Source: Paenibacillus sp. FSL H8-0537 | GTDB lineage: Bacteria; Bacillota; Bacilli; Paenibacillales; Paenibacillaceae | Assembly (NCBI RefSeq): GCF_038051995.1 | Contig: NZ_CP150290.1 | Span: 5,575,001-5,639,000 of the forward strand | Reading direction: 5' to 3' | DNA: 64,000 bases | Shown here: piece by piece, positions 44,179 to 60,199 of the stretch | How positions within the stretch are numbered: the first letter of the stretch is position 1 | Layout of the letters: each line of letters begins with the position of its first letter | The notes under the pieces: model-generated | Seen by the model: the letters and a program-made list of their open reading frames with translations, nothing else | Databases searched by the model: none | What the model was told of the DNA's origin: nothing | Translations under genes and position numbers: made by a program

Positions 44179-47100
44179 TTAACGTTTAATCTGCTCAAGA
44201 ATTTGCGGATCTTTAATTTTCGTATCCTGTGCAAGCAGAACGATTTTGGATAAAATCTCTGCTGTCTTTGGGTCTTCATCCATGAATGGCAGGAACAGCT
44301 TGCCTCGGTGCTGAGAATGAACCGGAATGATGGCAACTGCGCCAGAAGCCTGCTTATATACAATTCCACTGCCCAGATGAACGCTGTATTCACCTAATTG
44401 CCCTGCAATTAAAGCATGGTTGCCTTCCAGTCTTACATTATTGATTTTGAGCAGTCGCAACGATTCTCGAACGATAGCTTGGCGGATTTCAATTGTTGTC
44501 AGACTCGCCTCAGGGTCTACTCCGCCTACATGTGCCACACTGACAACCAAATCCACATCACGCATCACTTCAGAGAAAACGAGTGGCGGTACATTTTTAA
44601 TATCAATCGGTTTATACGTATGGCGATCAAAGAAACGGACTGTTTCTAGAGTTGGGCATTCAACATCCGACGGAGAAAACCAATCAGCTAGCGCATAAAT
44701 GCTCGCAATGATATTTTCCTTGTAATAAACCTTCTGCAGTCCTTCCTCATAGCTTACCGTCCATAAGCGGCCCTTCAGCAAGCTAACCGTCTTGCGAGGC
44801 TGTACCTGGTGTCCGTCATATCTGCGGGAAATCGCACCACTAGCCAGCTCATCAACATTCGGCATGTACAATTCACGAAATACTTGTTTGAACGGTTGTT
44901 TCAACTGCCTGTCAAACATATCCTTTTGGTACAAGCTCCACTGTCCACTGTTGAACAAATGCAGAGGATGGGCAATAAGCAACTCATCGCTTTCGGCAGC
45001 TTCATAGGCTTCCCCTGCTGCTCCGAGCAGCGTTCCGTTTTCAAAGTAACCTAGCTTTCCATTAGCACCAAATATCAATGTTCTAATTAAAGGGGCAATA
45101 ACCGGATTTTTCGCGAGCTTGTTAATCTCTTCTTTAGTGAAAAGACTTCCCGTTTCCATGGAGCGTTCAAGTTCCTTGCGCGCCCGCTTGAATTGATCGG
45201 AAAGCTCCGATTTAATTTGCTTAAGCGTCTCAATATAATCATGCTTTTTATAAGCAGCCGGAACGGACTTAAGCTCCTTGTCTTTGCGGAGCAAGCGGAT
45301 CTCTGCTTTTCCTTCTTCGTCAATGATCAGCTGTACCGTAACTTCCTCATCCAAAGCGACAGGATCAAAGTAGTGCAGAAGCTCGTCTATTTTCCGTCCT
45401 TCCATATCCCAAGTTAAACGAACCACATCGTTATACCCTGCATTTCGGGCTAAGTTATCAAGTGCAATGGAGCTTGTTTTTGACTCTGTAGCCCGACGCT
45501 GGGCTCCAAACGCTTTGCTTTCTTTAAGAAATTGCTGAATAAATTCATAACGTTCCAGTACATCGCGCTGTTTGTCTTGCTCTAATGGAACTAGGCTATA
45601 ACACAGCAAATGATCTTTATTGCGTTTATCCGCTACTGATTTTTTCAAGTCTGCAAGCTTAAGTTTACCCAGCACCGCGTCGGAAAATAATTGAGAGCGT
45701 CTGTGGTTGGAACCGGCCGAAATATATTTTGCAGACTGATAGAGTTGATCAAACCGCGTCTCTCCAAGCTCTTCATAAGCAGAATGGAACCACTTCACAT
45801 CGAATGCGCCATCATTGAAATCCTCCGGTAAAATCGGGGAATAATGGGCTACAATCGTTTCTTTCTCCCCTGAAAATGTCTCATTTATATGAGCGTGGAA
45901 ATACCAGGCTGCACTGCGTAGACCATTCCAGCCCAAATATTTTGCTATAATATCAACCCACTGCGGTGCATACATCGCTGCTTCAAGCAGTCTGACCTCG
46001 TTAACTTTGCTTCCCTTAAGCAGCTCTTTCAACGTCTCTTCGTTCTCCCCCGCAGCAGGGTGGCATACTTTAAGCATTTGGCTGAACGATTCTTTTTTCG
46101 TCGTATTTTTGCCATTGCTATAAATGTAGCCCCGGACGAATGATTCTTTATCCAACCCAGTCAAAATACGAAGGAAATATGAAGTCCCCTGAATAAGTGA
46201 AATGCTTGTTGCGAGCTCCGTGACATCCGTCGCAAGATCGCCGCGGTTAAGTTCAATTTCCAATATCCGCTCGATAACCCTATTTTTAATAACAACGATT
46301 TCTGAGTAAGAGCTTAAATCATGATTTTTCGGGCTAGTCATTTCCCCGATGTAATTATTGCTGCGTGGTCTGGACATTAATAATCGAATAAGTTCATTTT
46401 CAGTCAGTATTTCCAAGCTATACGCCCTTGCAAAATCCTCAATTCCAAGCAAATAACCATTGTAACCCTGCAGTGCAAATAACCAGTAATAAACTTCAAA
46501 ATACGGTTTGAATGAATGATCGCTATGCAGTTCAGACTTTTGCCAGCGCCGCCAGAAATTCGTCACTGCATTTAAAATACCTTGATTTCCATCCTCTTTG
46601 TCATGAGGGAAGCAGCTAATAATTAAACGCAGCGCATGATTCGACTTGTCAAATCGCTCCTGTTTATTGCTATCTGAAATATAAGCATCAATAATTTCAT
46701 TGACCTGATCCCCATAATCCAATTGATTATAAATCGCTTGCATATCCACCACTTTCTCCATAGGATAGATGGTTTCTATTAGTTCCTTGCCCCAAGACTC
46801 CAGCGCCTGAAAGTTGGAATCGTACATTTCCCACCTTTTCAATTGTCCCGTGCAGCAGCGATGCAAGAAATCTGCATGACGATAAAACTCCAGCTGCATT
46901 AACTCAAGCGGGCCAAAGCCGCTCGAATCCAAATATTTTCTCCATACGTCAGTAAGGGGATAACGTTCCAATACAGGTGTGTTATCTTCGGGGTCGTAAC
47001 GCCAGCTTGTTGTTGACAGCCTTGTCCCGAGAAGCACCGTCTGTTTAGCCTCATAATAATCTTGAATTTCATATTCATGTTCCCGATATTCATGAACAAG

Positions 47101-49116
47101 CTCAGATAACCCTTGTAAAAAATGCTGCATCTTGTCCACCGGCAAAGTGAAATATTGCTTCACTTCTTCCAAAGCCGACAAAGGCATTGGTTCTATTTGT
47201 ACAAGCCGATCGACTTTCTCAGGAAGGTTGTACAAGCCAAAGCCATTTGCCAAAGAATAGGTAGCCTCTTGTTTCAGCTTCGCTAGTAATAGCCGTTCCT
47301 TGTCTGTTGGCTCGGTAAGTACTTCTACCTGATCCTGAAGCTCAGCAAACAGCCCCGCATGCTGCTCGTCTTCCTTCATCTCAGTCAATAATTCCAACGC
47401 AGCCAGACGCTGCAGCTCCACCCGACTTTGCAGAAGCTCCTTTGTTACAGCCTTAAGACTGGAAGCTGGTTGGTTGAGCAGAAGTTCAATAGCACCTTGA
47501 CGAAGTGCTCCTTTCTTAAGCTTCAGCAGAGCGGATATAGAAGACAGCTCCTCCACACTCATTTGGAGCTTTGCAGCTTTCCGAATCGCTAATTCGCGAT
47601 TGCTTGTACTTTTATCTGAAAGGCTTGCAAATAAAAAGCCTCTTTGTGCTTTATTTTCTGGATCGGGAAGGAAATACTTTAACAACTCGCCCCGCATACT
47701 AGGACTCAATGTATCTTTAATAGTTATTATTTCGGCAATCATTTCATTATCCATATCATAAGCAATCAGATAGAGCATCTTTCTTACGATTTCATCGGCA
47801 TGAAGCGTATAGCTCCTCCAATCAAATACACGGGAATTTTTCGTTATTTCCTTCTCATTCATCCCGGAAAGCATGTTGAAAAATTTCGAAAAATGGCTCT
47901 GTCTCTCCGATTTCTCCTCAAGAAATGGTGTACTTGTATAAGTCAACGTATTATCTCTATCCATATGCCATTCGTAGCTGTATCCATAGGCGTAATTATC
48001 AAGAAGCCAATACTGCAGCTCATAATCTGTCTCATCAAGCCAATTTTTAGCAATGGAAAAACGCATAGCTGTATTGGTGCTCTGTGCAAGAACATACTGA
48101 GCAACCACTTTACGATACGTATCCTGGCTTCCCATTATATAAGAAATCTTTTCATGCAAATCATTTTCCTCATGCACAGCTGTCGTCCACAGAGCCATAA
48201 ATACCTCATTGACGTTGCTGCTTTCCAGCCACTGCTCACATAATGCCTTATTTCCGAGGGACTGGATCACGTAGCTGAGGCACTGCTTCGCTACTCGGGC
48301 ATTCGCGGCTTCCAAATTCAGGCCTGTCCAAACATCCAACGCGCGAATAACCGAGCTAAATCGGATTAAATTATTTTCCTCCACAATTTTCAACATAAAT
48401 AGCATGGCCTCAATCGTGCCCGAGTCCATTTGCTCGACAATACTTTGTCTGAGTCCTTCTTGCAGACGGGCAGCAACAAGAAGCTCGCCTATCATATGAT
48501 AAGCTCGCTTACTATGGCTCAAAAATATACCAGAAATCATAGGACGGGAAAGCAAGGCGGTGTTATTGTCACCATATATAATTTCTTTCAAATCCTCAAA
48601 CGTTTCTTCGTTTTCCCTATCAAGCTCATAAGCAATCATATCCGCCGCGGCAAGCATTGGGTGATTGTAATCCGATAGAGAAGAATGATTAACTTTCGTC
48701 AAATAATCCTTCACATTGAAGTTCGCCGCCTGTATATAAAAGAGAGAGATACATTTCTCTATCACTCTTTCCGTATGTACTTCTAAATTTGACGTGCGGA
48801 ATGGGCGGCGCAAATAACCATTACTGTACGGATACTCCACGCAACGGTTAACAATATATCGGAATACAGCTGCATAAGGGGCGTCAAACAGCTTATCCAT
48901 AATAGCAACAAGCGGATCGAACCATTTGCTGCTATCATCTGCTGACAATTGCTTCAACAATTGCTTTAATTCTTTCTTCGCGTCGCTATCCATATATCTC
49001 TGTTTAGCAAATTCGATGACTAGACTAGCAAGTTTGTGATAAGACTCATCCTTATCCAAGGTACCCGCTTTATCCAGCATCTTCTGAAAATACGCCTTAT
49101 TCGCTTCTAACTCCAT
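44179..49116 (-). CDS. Giant DUF4132-family protein
   Basis: A 1645-residue cytoplasmic protein. It is mostly helical, with HEAT-like stretches in the first thousand residues (LAIRKAAKLQMSVEELSSIS...LRQGAIELLLNQPASSLKAV). The DUF4132 core is near 1185-1230 (SLVPLEQDKQRDVLERYEF, IQQFLKESKAFGAQRRATES), followed by a conserved C-terminal domain (about 1330-1645; VECPTLETVRFFDRHTYKPI; VSVAHVGGVDPEAS). The family, which includes the E. coli MolR/YehI proteins, has no established activity. AGGAGG precedes ATG 49114-49116. It is encoded 47 bases after a beta-grasp protein and divergent from the STM4015-4011-like genes. Confidence 0.85.
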   Translation of the reverse strand: MELEANKAYFQKMLDKAGTLDKDESYHKLASLVIEFAKQRYMDSDAKKELKQLLKQLSADDSSKWFDPLVAIMDKLFDAPYAAVFRYIVNRCVEYPYSNGYLRRPFRTSNLEVHTERVIEKCISLFYIQAANFNVKDYLTKVNHSSLSDYNHPMLAAADMIAYELDRENEETFEDLKEIIYGDNNTALLSRPMISGIFLSHSKRAYHMIGELLVAARLQEGLRQSIVEQMDSGTIEAMLFMLKIVEENNLIRFSSVIRALDVWTGLNLEAANARVAKQCLSYVIQSLGNKALCEQWLESSNVNEVFMALWTTAVHEENDLHEKISYIMGSQDTYRKVVAQYVLAQSTNTAMRFSIAKNWLDETDYELQYWLLDNYAYGYSYEWHMDRDNTLTYTSTPFLEEKSERQSHFSKFFNMLSGMNEKEITKNSRVFDWRSYTLHADEIVRKMLYLIAYDMDNEMIAEIITIKDTLSPSMRGELLKYFLPDPENKAQRGFLFASLSDKSTSNRELAIRKAAKLQMSVEELSSISALLKLKKGALRQGAIELLLNQPASSLKAVTKELLQSRVELQRLAALELLTEMKEDEQHAGLFAELQDQVEVLTEPTDKERLLLAKLKQEATYSLANGFGLYNLPEKVDRLVQIEPMPLSALEEVKQYFTLPVDKMQHFLQGLSELVHEYREHEYEIQDYYEAKQTVLLGTRLSTTSWRYDPEDNTPVLERYPLTDVWRKYLDSSGFGPLELMQLEFYRHADFLHRCCTGQLKRWEMYDSNFQALESWGKELIETIYPMEKVVDMQAIYNQLDYGDQVNEIIDAYISDSNKQERFDKSNHALRLIISCFPHDKEDGNQGILNAVTNFWRRWQKSELHSDHSFKPYFEVYYWLFALQGYNGYLLGIEDFARAYSLEILTENELIRLLMSRPRSNNYIGEMTSPKNHDLSSYSEIVVIKNRVIERILEIELNRGDLATDVTELATSISLIQGTSYFLRILTGLDKESFVRGYIYSNGKNTTKKESFSQMLKVCHPAAGENEETLKELLKGSKVNEVRLLEAAMYAPQWVDIIAKYLGWNGLRSAAWYFHAHINETFSGEKETIVAHYSPILPEDFNDGAFDVKWFHSAYEELGETRFDQLYQSAKYISAGSNHRRSQLFSDAVLGKLKLADLKKSVADKRNKDHLLCYSLVPLEQDKQRDVLERYEFIQQFLKESKAFGAQRRATESKTSSIALDNLARNAGYNDVVRLTWDMEGRKIDELLHYFDPVALDEEVTVQLIIDEEGKAEIRLLRKDKELKSVPAAYKKHDYIETLKQIKSELSDQFKRARKELERSMETGSLFTKEEINKLAKNPVIAPLIRTLIFGANGKLGYFENGTLLGAAGEAYEAAESDELLIAHPLHLFNSGQWSLYQKDMFDRQLKQPFKQVFRELYMPNVDELASGAISRRYDGHQVQPRKTVSLLKGRLWTVSYEEGLQKVYYKENIIASIYALADWFSPSDVECPTLETVRFFDRHTYKPIDIKNVPPLVFSEVMRDVDLVVSVAHVGGVDPEASLTTIEIRQAIVRESLRLLKINNVRLEGNHALIAGQLGEYSVHLGSGIVYKQASGAVAIIPVHSQHRGKLFLPFMDEDPKTAEILSKIVLLAQDTKIKDPQILEQIKR

Positions 49117-49163: not shown

Positions 49164-49583
49164 CTACCATATTCTACCTGCCAGCATAGTAAAACGAATC
49201 AATGCGAGTTCGTCGCCATCCTGTATATGTAAAGGACTATCCAATTGTTCGATTTCATCGCCATTAATAAATACCTTATATAGTCCGTCTTCAAACGCCA
49301 GTATTGCAGTACAAAGCGCTTCATCTATACTTGCTCTTTGCTCATTATATATTGAGCCAAAGCCAACTTTGCCCGTCTCGGCTTGCAGCTCCACATCACT
49401 TTGCGTCAAATATGGCACAAGCGGAACGTCCGTCTCCTTTTGATTGAATTTCTGAACATTTACAGTAACCAGGTCCGTAATTAGCGCTTTCAACGTATCC
49501 GGTTTATTTGTAAGTGTCCACTCGAGACGATTTAAATAGCTTTTCTTCTTTCCAAGACTCTTCACCGTTATGTACACAATCAT
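49164..49583 (-). CDS. Small protein with beta-grasp (MoaD/ubiquitin-like) C-terminus
   Basis: A 139-residue protein encoded directly before the DUF4132 gene, with GGAGG upstream of ATG 49581-49583. The last 50 residues have the pattern of a beta-grasp fold: FEDGLYKVFINGDEIEQLDS, then IQDGDELALIRFTMLAGRIW. The INGxEI and DGDELALI strands are the hallmark positions of MoaD, ThiS and ubiquitin-like proteins. The end is GRIW rather than GG, so thiocarboxylation or conjugation would need trimming or does not occur. The N-terminal part (MIVYITVKSLG) is a separate strand-rich region. The family assignment is inferred by eye. Confidence 0.65.
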   Translation of the reverse strand: MIVYITVKSLGKKKSYLNRLEWTLTNKPDTLKALITDLVTVNVQKFNQKETDVPLVPYLTQSDVELQAETGKVGFGSIYNEQRASIDEALCTAILAFEDGLYKVFINGDEIEQLDSPLHIQDGDELALIRFTMLAGRIW

Positions 49584-49677
49584 GACCGACTACCTCCGGA
49601 TACTTATAATGTCCCCTGACTACCATAATAGTACCATATTTAGGAAAGGACGCCCTTCATGCCTTTAGGAGGAAATA

Positions 49678-49815
49678 ATGAAACTTTCTCTACACATCCA
49701 GGCCCTTTTACACTTAAAAATACGTGATATAGACTATTTACACCTATCGCATATGAATAGAACAATGTATAAATTTTTATTATTTCGTCTTCAAGTATGT
49801 TTAATTGTCCTTTAA
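49678..49815 (+). CDS. Possible 45-aa small ORF with strong RBS
   Basis: A 45-residue frame starting MKLSLHIQALLHLKIRDID and ending in LQVCLIVL. AGGAGG lies five bases before ATG 49678, which is unusually good for a chance frame. The composition is Leu- and His-rich with one Cys. No family is recognised. It lies in the divergent region upstream of two radical SAM genes, so a peptide substrate is conceivable, but it may equally be a chance frame. Confidence 0.25.
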   Translation: MKLSLHIQALLHLKIRDIDYLHLSHMNRTMYKFLLFRLQVCLIVL

Positions 49816-50044
49816 TATTTACGGCTTGCCAAAAGGGAACATAGGTTCTATAATTCATATTACAGGAACATACGTTCTTAGTCAATGAAATTCCAACCTC
49901 TTCCTTCTGTTTTTGGATATGTGGATTTGAAAATTCATTAAAGAAACAATGTTTGAGCATTCCTTAGCACGGGTATAACCCTCTATTGGAAACTTTGATT
50001 TTATGCTTCATTGTTTATTAATCATTTTCAGGAAAACAGCTGGA

Positions 50045-50073
50045 TTGACGCTGCTGAGTAGAGCGTGTTATTT
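50045..50073 (+). promoter_or_regulatory. Promoter candidate of the STM4015-4011-like operon
   Basis: -35 TTGACG (50045-50050), a 17-bp spacer, -10 TTATTT (50068-50073), 34 bases before the first start codon at 50108. Confidence 0.55.
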
Positions 50074-50107
50074 TAAATTGGACATGGAAACTTTTGGAGG
50101 GATATGA

Positions 50108-50950
50108 ATGATTGAGATTCGCTTATCCGTTGATTACGATGAATATGAAAATGGTGTTCGCATTTCCCAGCTTATTGACCAGCTCACTGAAAAACCGAAC
50201 GCAGCTAATATTTCCGTGCTTACGATCGGTGATTGGGGACAAGCCTATGAGAACGGACCTGATGATGCAATCGAATCACTCGTTAAACACAAACATATTT
50301 TCACAGGGCTGAGCAGCGTATTTCTTGGAGATATGGACTCGGAGGAATGTGAAGTATCCTGGATTAATCAAACAAACATCGCTCCACTGCTTGAAGCCTA
50401 TCCTAATCTTCGATCCCTTACCGTTAAAGGAAGCACCGATTTAAGTTTCGAACCCCTGCAGCATGCAGCGCTTCAAGAACTGAAAATTATTTGCGGCGGA
50501 TTGCCGAATAGTGTAATTGGACAAATCGCTGGCTCCCAGCTTCCTGAGCTTCGCAGACTTGAATTGTATCTTGGTGTAGATAATTATGGGTTTGATGCAT
50601 CGCTGGAAGAGGTTCTGGCAGTCGCTAATCCAGAGCTATTCCCAAAGCTCACCTATTTGGGCTTGAAAAATAGCGAGATTCAGGACGAGATTGCAATTGC
50701 GATTGCTGATTTTCCAATTGTCGACCAATTGGATACGCTTGATTTGTCTTACGGTACTCTAACCGATGTGGGAGCAGAAGCCCTCATAACGAGCGAGCGG
50801 GTGAAGAAGCTTAAACATTTGGATCTTAATTACCACTATATGAGCGATAAAATGGTCGAACGCTGGAAAGCAACTGGTCTTTCTGTTGACCTTAGCGATG
50901 GGCAAGATGCTGATGAGGATGACTGGCGCTATCCCTATATTACGGAATAA
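50108..50950 (+). CDS. STM4015-family leucine-rich-repeat protein
   Basis: A 280-residue cytoplasmic protein. An N-terminal part (about 1-95) is followed by leucine-rich repeats (LRSLTVKGSTDLSFEPL; LRRLELYLGVDN; LTYLGLKNSEIQD; LDTLDLSYGTLTDVGAEAL; LKHLDLNYHYMSD). The layout and neighbours match the STM4015 family named after Salmonella. It is probably a binding or scaffold subunit, because no catalytic motif is seen. GGAGGG lies six bases before ATG 50108. The stop overlaps the next start (TAATG). Confidence 0.82.
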   Translation: MIEIRLSVDYDEYENGVRISQLIDQLTEKPNAANISVLTIGDWGQAYENGPDDAIESLVKHKHIFTGLSSVFLGDMDSEECEVSWINQTNIAPLLEAYPNLRSLTVKGSTDLSFEPLQHAALQELKIICGGLPNSVIGQIAGSQLPELRRLELYLGVDNYGFDASLEEVLAVANPELFPKLTYLGLKNSEIQDEIAIAIADFPIVDQLDTLDLSYGTLTDVGAEALITSERVKKLKHLDLNYHYMSDKMVERWKATGLSVDLSDGQDADEDDWRYPYITE

Positions 50951-52158
50951 TGACCGCCACAGTTTCAGTACAACCCTATTTGTTAATTGGGAACCCAGGC
51001 AACAAACGTACGCTTGGCCTACAAGCTGCCAGGCAGAAGCTTGGGCTTCCCCCAGCTATTGTTCTTCCTTATTCGGATCTGCTGAAACGTTCTACCCATT
51101 TAGGTGAATCGATTCGGCAGGCGGCAACAAACTCACAGCCCATAGAAGGAAAGCCCATTGTTCTACGGCTGGATGCTCCTGGAGAAAATTCACTTGTGGA
51201 GCGTGAATTAATTGCGTGGGGAGCAGAATTTGAAAGCAACAGAAAAGATTTAACTAGCGGTATATCTGTTACTCCGACCGAAGCATTGCGGCTTCCCGAA
51301 CAATATGGGCGCATCCTTTATCCAGGGCAATGGTACCGTGGCTATTGTCGCCTGCTAGCCGAGCTTCGTGAAGCTGCGCAGCAAAGTGATTTTCCATTCC
51401 GCTGGGTCAACGATCCGGCGGATGTTGCCGTTATGTTCGACAAGCGGCGCTGCCAGCAGCTGCTTTCACAAAATGGTGTCCCTACGCCTGCTCTGCCAGC
51501 TCCCACTGGCTCTATCCGAGATTATGAATCGCTGCTGACGGCTGTTCAATCGAGCCGTATGAACCGCTTATTCATTAAGCTTGCTTATGGCTCAGGAGCC
51601 TCAGGCGTTATCGCCTATCAGCGTCATCCTGTAACTGGCTCAGAAATTGCGATTACAACGATTGGCATAGAGCAGCATAAAAATGAACAGATTTACTACA
51701 ATTCTGGTAAATTGCAGCGTTATACCGACCATTCAACGATCCGATTAATCATTGACTGGGTATGTCGTGAAGGTGCTCAAATTGAGCGTTGGATTGAAAA
51801 GGACAGTATCGATGGCAGCAGCTATGATATTAGGCAGCTTGTCGTTAACGGTTCCCCTTGCCATGCCTTAGCAAGGCTAAGCCGCACTCCTATTACTAAT
51901 TTACATTTGCGCAATGAGCGTCGCTTAATAACAGATGGCACGCTTTCAGCTGCTTTGAAAAACCAGGTAGAAGATACAGCTGTATCCGCACTTGCTGCAT
52001 TTAATGGTTCAACGGTCGCTGGAATTGATGTGCTTGTTCAAAAAAAACAGGGCCGGACCTACATATGCGATGTTAATCCCTTCGGTGATTTACTGTATCA
52101 TGCCGAGCATAAGGGAATGAATACTTACGAATGGCAAATGTCGCTTCTACAGAAGTAA
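50950..52158 (+). CDS. STM4014-family ATP-grasp enzyme
   Basis: A 402-residue protein with an ATP-grasp fold: VMFDKRRCQQLLSQNGVPTP (pre-grasp helix), RLFIKLAYGSGASGVIAY (lysine and glycine loop), SYDIRQLVVNGSPCHALARLS, and a metal-binding end AGIDVLVQKKQGRTYICDVN followed by PFGD. ATP-grasp enzymes join a carboxylate to an amine, thiol or other nucleophile through an acyl phosphate. The substrate is unknown. The start overlaps the preceding stop, so translation is coupled. Confidence 0.85.
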   Translation: MTATVSVQPYLLIGNPGNKRTLGLQAARQKLGLPPAIVLPYSDLLKRSTHLGESIRQAATNSQPIEGKPIVLRLDAPGENSLVERELIAWGAEFESNRKDLTSGISVTPTEALRLPEQYGRILYPGQWYRGYCRLLAELREAAQQSDFPFRWVNDPADVAVMFDKRRCQQLLSQNGVPTPALPAPTGSIRDYESLLTAVQSSRMNRLFIKLAYGSGASGVIAYQRHPVTGSEIAITTIGIEQHKNEQIYYNSGKLQRYTDHSTIRLIIDWVCREGAQIERWIEKDSIDGSSYDIRQLVVNGSPCHALARLSRTPITNLHLRNERRLITDGTLSAALKNQVEDTAVSALAAFNGSTVAGIDVLVQKKQGRTYICDVNPFGDLLYHAEHKGMNTYEWQMSLLQK

Positions 52159-52185
52159 AAAGCCTGCACGGAGAGGATGCTCAGG

Positions 52186-52974
52186 ATGATAGATATGAAC
52201 CAAATCGTGGGCTCTCATGATATTGTTATGATTACGCTTGATACGCTGCGTTATGATGTAGCCAAGCTCGAAGAATCCAACTGCCGCAACTTATGCGCAG
52301 ACGGACCATGGGAGAAGCGGCATACGCCTGGCAGCTTCACGTATGCTGCACATCATGCCTTTTTTGGAGGCTTTCTCCCTACTCCTGCCAATACGGATAA
52401 AGCATCACATGTGCGATTATTCCACACCAAAAATACAGGTTTAAAAACACATCCCCACACATGGCAGTTTGATGCACCTGATCTTGTAAGCGGCCTTGCC
52501 GAAGAAGGATACCGAACGATATGCATTGGAGGAGTCATCTTTTTCACTAAGAAAAATAAGCTGGCAAAAGTACTTCCCGGATATTTTCAAGAAAGCTACT
52601 GGCGCATGAATTTCGGGGTAACCAACCCTCGTTCTACTGAGCATCAGGTCAATCATGCTCTAAAGCTGCTGGAGAAGGCTAATATCAATGAAAGATTGTT
52701 TCTGTTCCTGAACATCTCAGCTATTCATGGGCCGAATCATTATTTTCTCCCTAGCAGTTCACGTAAAGACTCCATCGAGTCGCAGCGTGCAGCACTCAGA
52801 TACGTAGACAGCCAGCTTGGCATATTGTTCGATGCGCTGCGAAGCCGCGGCAAAACCCTTTGCCTCGCCTTCTCCGATCATGGAACCGCCTATGGCGAAG
52901 ACGGATACGACGGACATCGACTCGCACATGAGGTTGTATGGAACGTACCATACCGTGAATTTATTTTAGAATGA
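52186..52974 (+). CDS. STM4013-family hydrolase (sulfatase/phosphatase fold)
   Basis: A 262-residue alkaline-phosphatase-superfamily protein. The N-terminal metal motif is ITLDTLRYDV (Asp19), followed by TPGSFTYAAHHAFFGGFLP, where a Thr or Ser (47-52) would be the nucleophile in place of the sulfatase Cys/Ser-x-Pro-x-Arg motif. The C-terminal metal pair is in AFSDHGTAYGEDGYDGH. Cleavage of a phosphate, phosphonate or sulfate ester is expected. ATG 52186 has GGAGAGG nine bases upstream; ATG 52177 abuts it. The stop overlaps an ATG used by the next frame. Confidence 0.82.
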   Translation: MIDMNQIVGSHDIVMITLDTLRYDVAKLEESNCRNLCADGPWEKRHTPGSFTYAAHHAFFGGFLPTPANTDKASHVRLFHTKNTGLKTHPHTWQFDAPDLVSGLAEEGYRTICIGGVIFFTKKNKLAKVLPGYFQESYWRMNFGVTNPRSTEHQVNHALKLLEKANINERLFLFLNISAIHGPNHYFLPSSSRKDSIESQRAALRYVDSQLGILFDALRSRGKTLCLAFSDHGTAYGEDGYDGHRLAHEVVWNVPYREFILE

Positions 52975-52991
52975 AAGAGGAGAGATGCCGG

Positions 52992-54356
52992 ATGTCTATG
53001 CCAACATCACTAACTAGACCAGCGGATTTGCCAGAATGGGGCAAGCGCTGGTTCGCCTCCCCTTACCGCTCCTATCTATATTCTTATCCGCATAAAACCG
53101 CTTATCGGACACTAACACCGGCGCTGCCGCTTGAGGAACTTTGGAAAGACGAAGCTGCCGATTATTATTTCTTATATATGCACATCCCATTCTGTGGGGT
53201 ACGCTGCGGATTTTGCAATTTGTTCACCCTTCCTGATCGTCGTACCCATGTGCATGAGCAATATGTAGATGCACTTGAACGTCAAGCTTTGCAGTGGGCT
53301 CCCATTATTACAGGAAAGCCTTTTTCCCGCTTCGCCATTGGTGGCGGTACGCCTACATTGCTTGAGGCTTCACAGTTAAATCGGCTGTTTACCATTGCTG
53401 AGGATGTTATGGGGCTGGATACATCACAGGCTTCCATTTCTGTGGAGACCTCTCCTGATACGGTGAGTGAAGAGCGGCTGCAAATCTTAAAAGACCGACG
53501 GACCGACCGGGTTAGTATTGGTGTGCAAAGCTTTATCGATGAGGAGGCTTCGGCCATTTATCGACCACAAAAGCCAAAGCTTGCTGAACAAGCAATTACG
53601 ATGCTGCAGGCTTTTGATTTTCCATTGCTGAATATTGATCTGATTTATGGTTTGCCGGGACAAACTGCCGATTCATGGATATATTCATTGGAGAAAGCAA
53701 TTAGCTTTGCTCCGGGTGAAATTTTCATTTATCCGCTGTATACGCGAGAACATACGATTTTAAAGCCAGATCAAATTCAGCGTCAGGGTACCGATGCACG
53801 GCTGGAACTATATCATATTGCATGCGAACGCCTTAAGGCGGCAGGTTACAAGCAATTTTCCATGCGGCGGTTTGCTAAAGACATAACGTTTACGCACAAA
53901 AACATTTTACCATTTAGCTGTCAGGAGGAAGGCATGGCTGGACTCGGCTGTGGTGCACGCTCTTATACGCGCGAAGTGCATTATGCGTCCCGTTATGGGG
54001 TAAGCGCAGCGGCTACAAGAAGCATCATTGCCGATTATGTTGCAACAGAAAACTTCCAATCCGCGAATTACGGATTTAAATTAAATGTCGCTGAACAGAA
54101 GCGGCGGTTTGTTTTAAAGGCACTGCTGCATGCCGAAGGCCTCTCACTTGCAAGCTATTCAGAACGTTTTCGCAGCGAAGCGCTTGCCGATCACTCCGAA
54201 CTGGCTGAGCTTATTCAACTCGGCTTTGCCCAAATGATGGATGGCGGACAAATCCTTCGTCTAACAGAGCTTGGCATGGCTTATTCCGATGCTATCGGCG
54301 ATGAGTTTATCTCCGGTGATGTTAGAGAATTAATGGAAGGGTACGAGCTGTCATGA
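52992..54356 (+). CDS. STM4012-family radical SAM enzyme (HemN-like)
   Basis: A 454-residue radical SAM enzyme with the HemN-type arrangement. The cluster motif is FCGVRCGFCN (Cys68, 72, 75), then GGGTPT for SAM binding, SIGVQSF and the HemN-like C-terminal domain (RFVLKALLHAEGLSLASYSERF). It is not coproporphyrinogen dehydrogenase by context. ATG 52992 has GAGGAG upstream; ATG 52971 overlaps the previous stop and is an alternative. The gene ends in a four-base overlap with the next. Confidence 0.88.
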   Translation: MSMPTSLTRPADLPEWGKRWFASPYRSYLYSYPHKTAYRTLTPALPLEELWKDEAADYYFLYMHIPFCGVRCGFCNLFTLPDRRTHVHEQYVDALERQALQWAPIITGKPFSRFAIGGGTPTLLEASQLNRLFTIAEDVMGLDTSQASISVETSPDTVSEERLQILKDRRTDRVSIGVQSFIDEEASAIYRPQKPKLAEQAITMLQAFDFPLLNIDLIYGLPGQTADSWIYSLEKAISFAPGEIFIYPLYTREHTILKPDQIQRQGTDARLELYHIACERLKAAGYKQFSMRRFAKDITFTHKNILPFSCQEEGMAGLGCGARSYTREVHYASRYGVSAAATRSIIADYVATENFQSANYGFKLNVAEQKRRFVLKALLHAEGLSLASYSERFRSEALADHSELAELIQLGFAQMMDGGQILRLTELGMAYSDAIGDEFISGDVRELMEGYELS

Positions 54357-55237
54357 AGGCTGTGCTGTATTATCGGGGGTCACTGTCCTCCTGCAACTAT
54401 GATTGTCCTTATTGTCCATTTAGCAAAAATAAAGACAGTGCCGCTACGCTGCGCAAAGACGAGGAGCAATTGCATACTTTCATGGATTGGATTCGGGAGC
54501 AAGGGCACGCCGGCCATGAATTATCTATTTTTTTCAACCCCTATGGTGAAGCCCTTATCCATCGCTGGTATCGCGAGGCTATGATTGAGTTGTCACATAT
54601 GCCCCATATTTCCAAGGTAGCCGTCCAGACGAATCTCTCTACTAAGCTAGACTGGACAAGCCTGTTAAATCCAGAGAAAGCTGCTTTTTGGGTTACTTAC
54701 CACCCCGGTCAGACGACGCTCAGCCAGATGCTGTCACAGTGCATGCAGTTGCACCAACAAGGACTTAATTTTAGCGTTGGAACCGTAGGGCTGCGAAGTG
54801 CTTTCGAGCAAATTGAAGCGCTTCGCAGCAACCTGCCAGAGGATGTATATGTTTGGGTGAATGCCTTTAAAGATAAACCTAACTATTACACAGAAGCAGA
54901 AATCGCCCGGCTTGAAGCCGTTGATCCTTATTTTCTATGGAATACGAGGGACTATGATAGCTTCGGTCAGCGCTGCTCCGCCGGGTCCTCCGTGTTCTAT
55001 ATTCAAGGAAGCGGTGTCGTCAAACATTGCTACAAAGATCGGCGTATCATCGGACAACTTTATCGGGACGGACTGGAAGGCTTATCCGTAGAACGACCTT
55101 GCGGCATGAAGAAATGCGGATGTTATATCGGCTATATCCATATGCCAAAGCTGGAGCTGGGAAATATCTATGAAGACAGTCTGCTGGAGCGAATTCCAAC
55201 ACATTTTCAGCATAAAGAAAAAGTGATCACTTCATAA
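54353..55237 (+). CDS. STM4011-family radical SAM enzyme
   Basis: A 294-residue radical SAM protein starting MKAVLYYRGSLSSCNYDCPY, with cluster cysteines 14, 18 and 21. Further cysteines at 208, 226, 250, 255 and 257 (RCSAG, KHCYKD, CGMKKCGC) suggest a SPASM-like auxiliary cluster, as in enzymes that modify peptides or proteins. It overlaps the STM4012-like gene by four bases and ends the five-gene operon. The substrate is unknown. Confidence 0.87.
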   Translation: MKAVLYYRGSLSSCNYDCPYCPFSKNKDSAATLRKDEEQLHTFMDWIREQGHAGHELSIFFNPYGEALIHRWYREAMIELSHMPHISKVAVQTNLSTKLDWTSLLNPEKAAFWVTYHPGQTTLSQMLSQCMQLHQQGLNFSVGTVGLRSAFEQIEALRSNLPEDVYVWVNAFKDKPNYYTEAEIARLEAVDPYFLWNTRDYDSFGQRCSAGSSVFYIQGSGVVKHCYKDRRIIGQLYRDGLEGLSVERPCGMKKCGCYIGYIHMPKLELGNIYEDSLLERIPTHFQHKEKVITS

Positions 55238-55307: not shown

Positions 55308-58300
55308 ATGATACTTAAAAACACACCCAAACTCAGACTGTTTATTTATATTGTTGTATTTATTAGCTTCCTAACCTGCCTGCATTTCATCTGGAACGCG
55401 GCGTTTAACCCCCCTGTCCATCCTGCTGCAAAGCAGGGTGTACTAGATTTGCGCAGCTGGCATTTTACTGACAAAGAAACGATAAGGCTTAATGGTCAGT
55501 GGGAGTTTTATCCAAATATTTTCCTTACGCCTGATCCCTTAGGCGCCTCGCCTGGCAGCAAAAGCTGGGCTGCTGTTCCAGATAAATGGGGTAATTATTT
55601 AAATAAAGACACTGATGGTTCTGGCTTTGGCTTTGGAACCTATCGTCTCCGTATTTTGCTTCCTGACAATGGCACTCAGCAATTTGGAATCGAGACGATG
55701 GCTATTTCAAGCAGCTATGAGTTATTCGTTAACGGCCGTTCTGTATCCAAGCTCGGCCAACCATCAGAAAACCCACAAGAGCATGTAGGGAAGATGTATC
55801 CTCTTATTTCTTCTGTTGCAGACACAAATGAGATGAATTTGGTGCTTCATATCTCCAATTATGATTTCCCTGAAGGAGGCGGTATTACCAAGCCGATTAA
55901 ATTCGGGACGTTAGCCGCCGTTCAGCGTGAAGATTATTTGTTAATTGCTATGCAGCTTATGGTTGCCGTCATCTATATACTTCATCTTATTTATGTAGGC
56001 CTTCTTCCTTTGCTTGGCGTTCGGAAGAAAGAGCTCATTTATTTGTCCATCGTTATTTTCTGTATGATGCTAGGTACTCTCGTGGATGATAATAAATTAT
56101 TGCTCTCCTGGCTGCCTATCCCTTTAGAGTGGAGTATTAAACTATTAAGGCTTAGTTTAATTGGAGCATCTACAATGCTGTTAGCATTCTCCGCCAATTT
56201 TTTTCCTATATATCGGAAGGATAAAGCCATACGCGTGTATTTATTGCTATGTGCCCTTTACGCAATCGTCACTTTGTTGCTGCCGTATGAACTAGTTATT
56301 TCCTTGTCCCCCCTTAGGATTATGGCGATCTCACTTCCGCCTTTAATTATATTGATTATGATCTTGCGCCTAGCACTTAAGGGTGAGGACAACATGGTTT
56401 TCCTCCTTTTTGCTGCTATAAGCCTCGCTTCCAGTATTGTTTGGGCTACCCTCAAATTAAGAACAGAGTGGGATTTGCCTTATTATCCATTTGATTTAAT
56501 TTTTGCATTTATCTGTTTTGCTTCCTTCTGGTTCAAACAATTTCTGCAAACTAGAACCAATTTGGAGCAGCTTGCTTATAAACTGCAAAAAGCCGATAAA
56601 GCGAAAGATGAATTTCTCGCTAATACTTCTCACGAGCTGAGAAATCCGCTGCATGGCATGATTAATATGGCGCAGACCGTATTGGCTAATACGACCCATT
56701 CCATTAATGAAGCAAGCAAAAATAATTTAATGCTGATCATTACCGTTGGACGCCGCATGTCGCTGCTGCTTAATGATTTGCTCGATGTCACACGTCTTAA
56801 GGAACGAGATATTCATTTGAATAAGGAAAGCATCCGGCTGCAAAACATCATTTCCGGCGTATTTGATATGCTGCGTTATTTAACGGAGGACAAACCCGTT
56901 CAGCTAGAAATGAATATATCCCGTTCATTTCCTAAAATAATTGCCGATGAAAATAGGCTGATTCAGATTTTATTTAATCTCATCCATAATGCTGTTAAAT
57001 TTACGAACGAGGGTATTGTTAGCGTTCATGCAGCAGCGATTGGGGATAAAGCCTATATCCACATACAGGATTCTGGGGTCGGCATAGATACAGACGTACA
57101 GCGCACTATTTTTCAAGCTTACGAGCAGGGTGATTCCAGCATGACCGCCATGAGCGGCGGTATTGGTCTCGGGCTCAGCATTTGCAGGCAATTAGTCGAG
57201 CTACACGGGGGTGAGCTAACGGTACAGTCGGTTCCGGGTAAAGGTTCTACGTTCACCTTCACCATGCTCCTTGACGCCCATGCAGCTGCCGACGAACCAG
57301 AATTTACGCTGCCAAGCGAAGCTGAAACAGCCGTGTCTACAGAAGCCGTCATTGCTGCTAATTCTCAATTACTGCGTCTTGATCAGAGACAAGCGGCATC
57401 CGACACAGAACAAAATAAAGCCACTGTCCTTGCCGTAGATGATGATCCTATTAACTTAAAAATATTATCCAGCTTGCTGGATTCAGAGTTTTATGAAGTG
57501 GCTACCGTCACGAGCGGCAAAAAAGCACTCAAGCTGCTTGAAACGAAGGAGTGGGATCTAGTTATCGCCGATGTTATGATGCCGCAAATGTCGGGCTATG
57601 AGTTGACTCAAACGATTCGCAAACGATTCAGCATATCCGAGCTGCCGATTTTATTGCTGACTGCTCGCAGCCGTCCCGAAGATGTCAATACAGGCTTTAT
57701 GGCAGGCGCAAATGATTATGTTACTAAGCCTGTCGATGCTTTGGAGCTCAAGTCTCGCGTACAAGCTTTAACTGACCTGAAACAAACGGTAAATGAGCGG
57801 CTGCGTATTGAGGCGGCTTGGCTTCAAGCACAGATTCAACCTCATTTTCTATTTAATACGTTAAATTCCATCGCCTCCTTAAGTGTGATTGATCAATCGA
57901 GGATGGTGCAATTGCTGGAGGAGTTCGGAAAATATTTGCGAGCGAGCTTTGATATGAAAAATTCAGAGCGCGTAGTTCCGCTTCAGCATGAGCTGGATCT
58001 GCTTCATTCCTATCTATTTATTGAGAAAGAGCGCTTCGGCAATCGCCTGCAAATTGAGTGGGAGCTTGATGACTTGCCATGGCTTCGTATTCCGCCGCTT
58101 TCCATTCAGCCGCTTGTAGAAAATGCCGTGCGGCATGGAGTGCTGTCCCGTTCAAGTGGGGGCACTGTGCGTATTCACCTGAAAGGATACGACGATTATA
58201 CTGAAATTGCGATTATAGATAACGGGGTCGGTATGGAAGAAGAGAAGGTCAGAAGCGTGCTGGAGCAAAACCGTGGAGGAATTGGCCTCCGTAATACGGA

Positions 58301-58424
58301 TCGTCGTTTGAAACAGCTGTACGGCAAGGGATTATGCATCGAAAGCACAGTAAAACAAGGTACGGTTGTTCGCTTTTCTATCCCAAAATCCTCAACCGAT
58401 GAAGCAAATTTAAATGGGATATAA
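55308..58424 (+). CDS. Large 7TM hybrid histidine kinase with two kinase modules
   Basis: A 1038-residue membrane sensor. In order: a membrane anchor (10-30), an extracellular jelly-roll-like domain (about 45-205; LNGQWEFYPN, FGIETMAISSSYELFVNG), a 7TM-DISM-type membrane block (205-425), HisKA with SHELRNP (His about 442), HATPase (about 545-660; GGIGLGLSICRQL), a receiver (about 705-825; VIADVMMPQMSG), then a LytS/YesM-type kinase part (IQPHFLFNTLNS, about 842) with a second HATPase (VENAVRHG). All phosphotransfer residues seem present. No response-regulator gene is adjacent, but a diguanylate cyclase follows 74 bp later. No clear ribosome binding site precedes ATG 55308. Confidence 0.9.
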   Translation: MILKNTPKLRLFIYIVVFISFLTCLHFIWNAAFNPPVHPAAKQGVLDLRSWHFTDKETIRLNGQWEFYPNIFLTPDPLGASPGSKSWAAVPDKWGNYLNKDTDGSGFGFGTYRLRILLPDNGTQQFGIETMAISSSYELFVNGRSVSKLGQPSENPQEHVGKMYPLISSVADTNEMNLVLHISNYDFPEGGGITKPIKFGTLAAVQREDYLLIAMQLMVAVIYILHLIYVGLLPLLGVRKKELIYLSIVIFCMMLGTLVDDNKLLLSWLPIPLEWSIKLLRLSLIGASTMLLAFSANFFPIYRKDKAIRVYLLLCALYAIVTLLLPYELVISLSPLRIMAISLPPLIILIMILRLALKGEDNMVFLLFAAISLASSIVWATLKLRTEWDLPYYPFDLIFAFICFASFWFKQFLQTRTNLEQLAYKLQKADKAKDEFLANTSHELRNPLHGMINMAQTVLANTTHSINEASKNNLMLIITVGRRMSLLLNDLLDVTRLKERDIHLNKESIRLQNIISGVFDMLRYLTEDKPVQLEMNISRSFPKIIADENRLIQILFNLIHNAVKFTNEGIVSVHAAAIGDKAYIHIQDSGVGIDTDVQRTIFQAYEQGDSSMTAMSGGIGLGLSICRQLVELHGGELTVQSVPGKGSTFTFTMLLDAHAAADEPEFTLPSEAETAVSTEAVIAANSQLLRLDQRQAASDTEQNKATVLAVDDDPINLKILSSLLDSEFYEVATVTSGKKALKLLETKEWDLVIADVMMPQMSGYELTQTIRKRFSISELPILLLTARSRPEDVNTGFMAGANDYVTKPVDALELKSRVQALTDLKQTVNERLRIEAAWLQAQIQPHFLFNTLNSIASLSVIDQSRMVQLLEEFGKYLRASFDMKNSERVVPLQHELDLLHSYLFIEKERFGNRLQIEWELDDLPWLRIPPLSIQPLVENAVRHGVLSRSSGGTVRIHLKGYDDYTEIAIIDNGVGMEEEKVRSVLEQNRGGIGLRNTDRRLKQLYGKGLCIESTVKQGTVVRFSIPKSSTDEANLNGI

Positions 58425-58498
58425 AACAAGTATAGAAATTGTATAGATGTTCCGTGTATAATGTTGGGGAACAAAAAAAATAACTATGGTGATAAAAC

Positions 58499-59257
58499 AT
58501 GCGCTTAAAAAAATGGGTTAAAATTCTCCCGACTTCCATTATGATTGCTGTAATAGCGGGAATGCTGGTGCTGTTTTTCACACAATTGTTCAGACTCCCC
58601 GAGCCATTCTTCTCTAATCAGAACCTTCCTTTCTTCTTCAACACCCTAATGGTCATTATCATTACCGTTCTTATTATTATCTTGCGTGCCATGCTTGTTG
58701 AGAGAGCAGTATTGAAGAAGCTTGCCTTTAGGGACGGTATTACGGGTCTTTATAATCGACATGGGCTTGAGCAATTTTGGAAAACATATCGCAGCAAAAA
58801 AAGTATGGCGATTCTCTATCTGGATTTGGATCACTTTAAAGAAATAAATGATCGTTTCGGCCATCATGTTGGAGACGCACTGCTTCGGGAGGTCAGCGTT
58901 CGCTTACAGCAGGTGGAGTCTAAAAAACATCGTGAGCTATTCCGGATTGGCGGTGATGAGTTCGTGATGATTCTCAAAAACTGCGACCCTATTATAGCAA
59001 AGCGGGCTGCCACGCAAATTTTGGAAAAGCTGACGACACCTTACGCAGTCGAAGGTTATCACGTGTTAATTACCGTTAGTATCGGTATTCGGATGTGCAC
59101 GGCCCGCAACGCTGAGCATGATATGCTTGTGAAAGAAGCGGATGCTGCGATGTACGTAGCCAAGAAACAAGGCAAAAATGGATTTTTTGTATTCAGGGAA
59201 GGAAGAAGCAAACTTCCAAAAGAGAAATATGGCAATATTAATCAAGCCAAGCCGTAA
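58499..59257 (+). CDS. Membrane diguanylate cyclase (GGDEF)
   Basis: A 252-residue protein with two N-terminal helices (about 10-30 and 45-63), then a GGDEF domain starting FRDGITGLYNRHGLEQF. The active-site motif GGDEF is intact at about 150-154, so it should make c-di-GMP from GTP. The inhibitory RxxD site upstream is not seen. No extracellular sensor domain is present, so input may come from its membrane helices. Its own -10 TATAAT is at 58457-58462. It lies 74 bp after the hybrid kinase gene. Confidence 0.9.
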   Translation: MRLKKWVKILPTSIMIAVIAGMLVLFFTQLFRLPEPFFSNQNLPFFFNTLMVIIITVLIIILRAMLVERAVLKKLAFRDGITGLYNRHGLEQFWKTYRSKKSMAILYLDLDHFKEINDRFGHHVGDALLREVSVRLQQVESKKHRELFRIGGDEFVMILKNCDPIIAKRAATQILEKLTTPYAVEGYHVLITVSIGIRMCTARNAEHDMLVKEADAAMYVAKKQGKNGFFVFREGRSKLPKEKYGNINQAKP

Positions 59258-59351
59258 AGTCAATAAGCAAGGAGTTCTACACCTTCCGCTTGTTTAGTGG
59301 ATCATGTGGTACTCCTTGCTTTTTTACGTTTCTATCAGCTTTCAATTCCTT

Positions 59352-59996
59352 TTATAGTGTCTCCATTTGACGGGCATGCACAATTAACCTGTGAGTCGGG
59401 TTGATGAGCGGATCGCAAGTAATGAGTGTAAGCAATTTGTCACCGGGAACACTATCTAATACTGACAGCTCGGTTGGCTCGACAATAAGGGTCTCGTACA
59501 CTTTGTAAACATATTTTGCATTACTGGTCTGTACGACAATTTCATCGCCAATTTCTACTTCATTCAGCCGATTGAATAACCTTCCGGTTGTATGGGCACG
59601 ATGCGCTGCGACAGCCGCATTGCCCTCCTCCCCAAACAAAGCAGTCTCTCGCATATGAACGGCCGCATGCTTCATATTAGCCTTTGTAGCGCCATCTAAG
59701 ATCGGTAATAAGACATCAATACGATCTATCGTAATTGTTGCAATGGGCTTGCCATTTTGAAAATCGTTTAATAGAGAAGCTGCCTCATCCTCGGTTTCTT
59801 CTCCTGCATTTAACATATTATTTAGCTGTGCGTAGCTTTGTGCGGCCCCCGTATTTACAGGCTGTGGCGTATCCATGAGCAGGAGCGCTTCTTTTAACAG
59901 CTTCTTCTGCTCCCGATCAGCCATCCATTCATTCCACTGCGGATAAATGAGCAGCAGCACTCCGACTGCTACCAATATAATTGCGATTTTACGCAA
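59352..59996 (-). CDS. Class D-like sortase
   Basis: A 214-residue membrane-anchored transpeptidase: N-terminal helix (3-20), a linker, then a sortase beta-barrel. His132 in AAHRAH, Cys194 in LITCDP and Arg203 in THRLIVHA form the catalytic set, and the TLITCDP end is typical of class D sortases. It joins proteins with an LPxTG-like signal to the cell wall. The start is TTG 59994-59996, with GGGAG eight bases upstream. It lies directly downstream of the LPxTG surface protein gene, which is probably its substrate. Confidence 0.9.
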   Translation of the reverse strand: MRKIAIILVAVGVLLLIYPQWNEWMADREQKKLLKEALLLMDTPQPVNTGAAQSYAQLNNMLNAGEETEDEAASLLNDFQNGKPIATITIDRIDVLLPILDGATKANMKHAAVHMRETALFGEEGNAAVAAHRAHTTGRLFNRLNEVEIGDEIVVQTSNAKYVYKVYETLIVEPTELSVLDSVPGDKLLTLITCDPLINPTHRLIVHARQMETL

Positions 59997-60100
59997 ATTC
60001 TCAGCTCCCTCTGCTTATATGTTGCTTAACTAAACTGAATAGGCTTCTCTATTATGCAGAGCCTGGCTCTACAGTTTCTCTACAGCCCGCACACTTCAAT

Positions 60101-60143
60101 TAAAAAAACCTCCAAAACGAATGAAAAGTCTTCGTTTTGGAGG
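60101..60143 (-). terminator. Terminator between the surface protein and sortase genes
   Basis: CCTCCAAAACGA (60109-60120) pairs with TCGTTTTGGAGG (60132-60143), followed on the minus strand by seven T. It would end or reduce transcription from the surface-protein gene into the sortase gene. Confidence 0.88.
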
Positions 60144-60199
60144 CCTTATGCGCAGAATATCAAATTTCTTTTACTCTGATGAAGCTTGCTGCATCACAT

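Follow-up and report, generated by a model that had tools for sequence, protein, structure and literature searches.

A two-module divergent locus of Paenibacillus with LexA-type boxes in both promoters and an invariant glutamate at the end of STM4015

A 64,000-nucleotide stretch of the Paenibacillus sp. FSL H8-0537 genome (contig NZ_CP150290.1, positions 5,575,001 to 5,639,000 of the forward strand; hereafter the window, numbered from its first letter) carries a divergent seven-gene locus formed by two conserved modules. Module A, on the minus strand, encodes a ubiquitin-like beta-grasp protein and a 1645-residue DUF5724-DUF4132-DUF7737 protein, the giant. Module B, on the plus strand, is the cassette STM4015-STM4014-STM4013-STM4012-STM4011. 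Two points about this locus are new: LexA-type boxes are present in both divergent promoters, and the leucine-rich repeat (LRR) protein STM4015 has an invariant tail that ends in glutamate. We propose, with somewhat less than even confidence, that the locus is an SOS-inducible two-part unit whose cassette acts on the glutamate at the STM4015 tail. What was observed directly are the genes and their order, the separability of the modules, the promoter-like sites with their boxes, the conservation of the tail and the families of the enzymes.

In the proposed scheme, LexA would repress two divergent promoters in this Paenibacillus lineage, and DNA damage would raise the ubiquitin-like/DUF4132 pair and the five-gene cassette together. 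STM4015, with its folded LRR body, acidic linker and Glu-ending tail, would be the carrier or substrate. STM4014 would activate a carboxylate of the terminal glutamate and join an amine to it, STM4011 (SPASM-like) and STM4012 (HemN-like) would next alter the tail or the group joined to it, and STM4013 would remove or transfer a phospho- or sulfo-group. The order of the steps and the product are predicted, as is joint action of the modules. It is unlikely, though worth stating, that the locus represents a new kind of DNA-damage-induced, protein-tethered biosynthetic or modification system, with an LRR carrier bearing a cross-phyla glutamate tag, loading of the RimK/LysX type, two radical S-adenosylmethionine (SAM) enzymes, and a co-induced ubiquitin-like protein and giant whose DUF7737 part is perhaps E2/RWD-like. 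Should the scheme proposed above hold, radical SAM chemistry would have a new class of protein carrier, tied to the SOS response in this lineage. The C-terminal glutamate of STM4015 is a specific place to look for a modification, and the divergent promoters with their LexA-type boxes point to mitomycin C as a condition to look under. DUF4132 proteins are widespread.

Gene content and the boxes in the divergent promoters

The sequence-only reading had described a seven-gene divergent locus at 49164..55237. All seven predicted open reading frames (ORFs), five on the plus strand and two on the minus strand, were found in the window by ORF list and family profiles; the giant gene itself (44179..49116, minus strand; Pfam matches above cut-off) lies outside that interval. 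It is separated by 47 bp from the gene of the beta-grasp protein (49164..49583, minus strand, 139 aa). On the plus strand follow STM4015 (50108..50950; NCBIfam NF038076 above cut-off), the STM4014 ATP-grasp ligase (50950..52158), the STM4013/SEN3800 hydrolase with a sulfatase/phosphodiesterase fold (52177..52974), the HemN-like radical SAM protein STM4012 (52971..54356) and the radical SAM protein STM4011 (54353..55237). The five genes are coupled or nearly so, as had been noted, with three overlaps (1, 4 and 4 nt) and one gap of 18 nt. The NCBIfam cut-offs for STM4011-STM4015 were all exceeded (348.7/275, 414.5/175, 397.7/250, 579.1/380 and 391.6/200 bits), and the family matches to two radical SAM enzymes, an ATP-grasp ligase and a hydrolase bear out the toolkit of a modification or natural-product pathway read from the sequence earlier. 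The nearest named locus is that of P. algorifonticola, whose STM4012 protein is 98% identical.

A consensus scan of the 524-bp intergenic gap found six promoter-like sites, compared with 2.2 expected from shuffles. The best site, TTGCCA-17-TATAAT (49826..49854, plus strand, 11/12), points toward module B, and TTGACT-17-TAATAT (49857..49885, minus strand, 9/12) points toward module A. By motif search, the spacer of each contains a perfect LexA-type box, GAACN4GTTC, at 49837..49848 and 49866..49877 respectively, so that the two boxes lie 29 bp apart. The box arms and promoter hexamers were identical in four genomes while the box centres varied, the exception being one base of the minus-strand -10 hexamer in L075. 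The host genome has 65 GAACN4GTTC sites in 7.0 Mb, compared with 193 of the reversed pattern, and only 0.018 box pairs within 30 bp are expected genome-wide. Since such boxes also stand before the host lexA (five boxes, each with at most one mismatch) and the host recA (at -88 and -373), GAACN4GTTC is plausibly the LexA box type of the host, and LexA is a candidate repressor of both promoters.

Boxes were also found near these genes in relatives. Roughly 20 kb was examined at STM4011 in each of the 30 other genomes that have it, and at each of 10 pairs that these stretches did not include. In these 40 loci, nine of 13 perfect boxes stood no more than 300 bp upstream of either STM4015 or the small gene, compared with 0.24 expected, and six of the nine came from three close relatives. 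Outside the close-relative clade there were three boxes against 0.12 expected (P 3e-4); with L095 discounted two remained (P 0.007), one upstream of STM4015 in G056 and one upstream of the small gene in G057. At L095:14532-14861 and L167:1496-1762, LexA-type boxes precede the gene of a small protein (about 90-110 aa); the two proteins are alike by eye, and the L095 gene is divergent from STM4015.

Module A has been connected with DNA damage elsewhere. PMC8533742 reports that the drA0165-drA0166 operon of Deinococcus radiodurans is targeted by DdrO and that mitomycin C raises DRA0166, the giant, in the wild type and not without irrE. The motif letters given there for DRA0165 were found 82 bp before the L143 small gene, which makes drA0165-drA0166 module A: the same small gene and DUF5724-DUF4132-DUF7737 giant, under a DNA-damage regulator. 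The regulator in Deinococcus is DdrO, and the cassette is not beside the pair there. This D. radiodurans pair, under DdrO, is the only case for which induction by DNA damage is reported. A DdrO-type motif (at most one mismatch) precedes the pair in three of four Deinococcus loci, D. ficus being the exception, and none of the three Deinococcus cassettes.

Escherichia coli K-12 has a WGR domain in YehF and, like the giant, a DUF4132 domain in YehI; CTGGATAAAATTACAG lies upstream of yehF, and yehF/yehH is presumably the former molR. In contrast to the window, the E. coli region has the WGR domain and MoxR/VWA neighbours, and the cassette is not adjacent. E. coli molR stands on lists of LexA-regulated genes (PMC11039860, PMC4576408). 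For module A, and in this lineage for both modules, the cue with the best support is DNA damage.

The STM4015 tail and the proteins of the two modules

STM4015, a relative of PDB entry 2RA8, had been viewed in the sequence-only reading as a possible recognition part. Its C-terminus gives a different impression. The architecture of LRR body, acidic linker and Glu-ending tail was present in 13/13 proteins of a first alignment. Glutamate was the final residue in 46/46 STM4015 proteins from the loci, in the 120 best-listed of 1980 database homologues (120/120; nearly all from Paenibacillus and overlapping the locus set), and in all seven copies added from Bacteroides, Calothrix, Streptomyces and Embleya. 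Five of them are not in a cassette operon, and their records contain one at another place; the L148 copy (minus strand), among these five, is immediately next to it. The tail usually has the form D/E-D/E-x-R-Y/F-P/V-x-L/V/I-T/S/G/A-E-stop and reads RYPYITE in the window (codons 50927..50947, plus strand). The Salmonella tail deviates (YMNAMYTE), retaining the glutamate. Alignments of STM4011, STM4012, STM4013 and STM4014 showed no fixed last residue, and the pattern R-Y-P-x-(xTx codon)-T-E-stop has a single occurrence in the host genome, STM4015 itself. The B. fragilis protein 2RA8 aligned through the tail with eight extra residues, which are probably a purification tag, and the B. finegoldii STM4015 has an N-terminal WGR domain. 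From this pattern of conservation, the tail looks like a substrate and may serve as acceptor.

RimK, CofF, MptN and LysX each attach an amine to a glutamate, which for RimK and LysX is C-terminal. The NCBIfam models nearest to STM4014 were RimK family (2.4e-7), MptN (9.8e-7), CofF (1.5e-5), D-Ala ligase (1.1e-4) and LysX (1.8e-4), and in a PDB profile search the nearest entries were the LysX structures 1UC8/1UC9 (4.2e-5) and RimK entries (8e-4 to 9e-4). D360 and N376 are invariant in the STM4014 alignment and fit the role of ATP-grasp metal ligands. STM4011 retains CX3CX2C; its C-terminal cysteines match the C-terminal part of the peptide maturase SkfB (E 6.5e-4), and it scored 16.1 bits with Pfam SPASM, under the cut-off of 21.5. 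STM4012 is HemN-like (6.9e-54), with NocN next (5.9e-33), and STM4013 retains sulfatase/phosphodiesterase motifs.

Several known systems share parts of this arrangement. The LysW domain of amino-group carriers ends in EDWGE. A C-terminal glutamate after an acidic stretch and an ATP-grasp partner of the RimK/LysX kind are common to LysW/LysX and the cassette (carrier chemistry in PMC9303977). Where LysW is a small domain, STM4015 has an LRR body of 280 aa, and its tail reads RYPYITE; the locus has two radical SAM enzymes in place of lysine or arginine pathway genes. Pearlins and the radical SAM-SPASM class of ribosomally synthesized and post-translationally modified peptides share the peptide-borne radical SAM chemistry proposed here, and the SkfB-like C-terminus of STM4011 may be of their SPASM type, whereas the substrate here would be a folded protein. 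The genes scanned with Pfam and NCBIfam included no PEARL-type ligase, and the window ORFs of at least 60 aa, the size range surveyed, no short precursor peptide gene.

The small protein of module A had no match in Pfam or NCBIfam; an AlphaFold model and fold searches gave a ubiquitin-like beta-grasp fold, common to MoaD, ThiS, Urm1 and ubiquitin. It is about 60 residues longer than these. Its C-terminus in the window is AGRIW, not GG, which speaks against the sulfur-carrier role suggested for it earlier. No E1-like gene was present among the genes scanned. Unlike the Paenibacillus copies, the Deinococcus copies end in AGG (4/4: L143:9995-10399, L152:7004-7408, L153:7001-7405, L155:7097-7399). 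The DUF7737 part, the last domain of the giant (window 44179-44520), shows a low-scoring model resemblance to E2/RWD folds and may have such a fold; the partner gene adjacent to that of the giant is the ubiquitin-like one.

The Salmonella STM4011-STM4015 genes, uncharacterised in NCBIfam, are the same five in the same order. The beta-grasp/DUF4132 pair and the LexA-type boxes distinguish the window; the Salmonella genes are followed by a Cof-type HAD hydrolase instead. This phosphatase comes after STM4011 in Salmonella (L142:12910-13644) and is fused to STM4011 in B. finegoldii (L175:9210-10775), so a sixth pathway function is possible. The sequence-only reading had called the families functionally unassigned, and no assigned function turned up in the open-licence literature that was searched, closed-access papers excluded. 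In that literature STM4011-STM4015 appear in two papers, in one of them as a table entry, and DUF4132 appears in three; DUF6745, DUF5724, DUF7737 and SEN3800 are not mentioned, nor are the STM4015 and STM4012 families under those names.

Linkage of the modules and rival explanations

The earlier reading inferred the link between the two operons from adjacency and named absence of co-occurrence in other genomes as evidence against it. A survey of 99 genomes (relatives and the window's own) showed that the DUF4132 and beta-grasp genes do co-occur with the STM4011-STM4015 set. STM4011 was present in 31/99 genomes, DUF5724 in 22/99 and the small beta-grasp protein in 21/99. The order STM4015-14-13-12-11 was intact at 31/31 loci, window included, and the giant lay directly after the small gene at 21/21 small-gene loci; each of the two gene sets is thus more than a chance assembly. 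G009, the sole DUF5724 genome lacking the small gene, has only a partial DUF5724 match, its giant being a fragment. Seventeen genomes have both modules (G009 with its giant fragment); these are adjacent in 11/99 genomes and apart in six.

Adjacency takes two forms. The divergent arrangement was found in four genomes (the window, L075, L081 and L083), and in seven (L076, L079, L082, L104, L107, L112 and L114) the pair lies downstream of STM4011 on the same strand. Inversion of the five-gene block would interconvert them. Genomes of the downstream lineage share a region that lies a few kb past the giant in the linked ones and past STM4011 in the five unlinked ones, consistent with a single site at which the pair is either present or absent. 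The linked giants form one clade (support 1.0) and the five unlinked genomes are nested among linked ones on the STM4012 tree, which suggests a single joining of the modules and several later losses.

This history is compatible with modules that have no joint function, having met once by chance, with the promoter region used by one or both for unrelated reasons. We consider this a serious contender, at a little under even probability: one joining event accounts for all 11 linked genomes, and partners differ in other phyla. Adjacency has nevertheless persisted even as the arrangement and the flanking genes changed, a perfect box stands in both promoters, and the modules co-occur with an odds ratio of 15 (Fisher p 5e-7 over the 99 genomes, and p 3e-4 within the genus over 51 genomes, both uncorrected for kinship). 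A different objection concerns the tail, since conserved tails can serve as docking motifs. The STM4015 tail would then be a docking or assembly tag, STM4015 a scaffold or sensor, and the enzymes would act on a free natural product or cofactor. The enzyme set suits small-molecule work, and HemN-like STM4012 has NocN, an enzyme of a natural-product pathway, as its next match. Such a tag would explain less readily why the final residue is fixed while its neighbours vary and why orphan copies outside the cassette retain it, and nothing else of a small-molecule kind, such as carrier domains or transporters, was constant among the genes scanned beside the 31 loci; we regard this account as rather unlikely. 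An anti-phage or other conflict system is improbable. The distribution is patchy and PADLOC weakly matched STM4011 to viperins (E 0.004) and STM4012 to PDC-M51A (E 4e-11), but radical SAM proteins can be expected to give hits of this kind, STM4012 scored far higher as HemN-like, five of the seven proteins had no PADLOC match, and only three phage-collection records match STM4013.

The SOS-inducible unit acting on the STM4015 glutamate has its own difficulties. Module B occurs without A in 14 genomes and A without B in five, figures that also favour modules of separate function. At the seven downstream-type linked loci no perfect box lay closer than 600 bp to STM4015 or 450 bp to the small gene, and cassettes of other phyla lack any SOS-type box tried except for a weak two-mismatch site in L140; SOS control is therefore not general for the cassette. 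The similarity of STM4014 to RimK and LysX is remote, with all NCBIfam scores far under cut-off (LysX, 20.7 bits against 275.6). Modification of STM4015 is itself a prediction, and the scheme would still need an amine donor, a releasing peptidase and a product.

Distribution beyond Paenibacillus and flanking genes

STM4013 was above cut-off in 4/149 genomes drawn from the phylum, all four from one family, and matched 26 plasmid-collection records, 14 of which were examined. The whole cassette was found in ten non-Paenibacillus stretches (three Deinococcus, two Streptomyces, two Embleya, Nonomuraea, Methylobacterium and Salmonella), and Bacteroides finegoldii has STM4015, STM4014, an STM4013 fragment and STM4011. 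The cassette thereby spans five phyla, Salmonella included, with Bacteroidota represented only in part. The beta-grasp/DUF4132 pair was on five plasmid-collection records, four from Deinococcus and one from Bacteroides, and the cassette was absent from the 14-20 kb examined around each. Modules A and B are on different plasmids in D. psychrotolerans and on different records in B. finegoldii. Adjacency, the two arrangements and the boxed promoters thus uphold the link that had been claimed, while separation in six relatives and on the D. psychrotolerans plasmids restricts it: the link is real and seen only in one lineage.

Seven of these 11 cassettes (the ten and that of B. finegoldii) adjoin a DUF6745 protein and a protein of about 100 aa, a pair missing from all 31 Paenibacillaceae stretches searched (those of 30 relatives and of L145, with the window outside the search). 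Sites in several phyla include L138:13012-14309, L139:6522-7847, L140:5725-7347 and L147:3168-4632. The DUF6745 protein is leucine-rich and has a YxPxxE-type end in the Deinococcus and Methylobacterium copies. In Streptomyces albidoflavus (L141:7881-11330) an STM4013-like hydrolase occurs with a radical SAM protein, a thymidylate-kinase-like protein and a NUDIX hydrolase, near lasso-peptide-type genes and with no cassette.

Eight flanking window ORFs recur, among the genomes tested, only in those of the divergent type, weak GGDEF matches excepted. The flank at 55308-63727 encodes a hybrid sensor kinase-like ORF (by eye), a GGDEF protein, a sortase and an LPXTG-anchored protein of the SdrD type.

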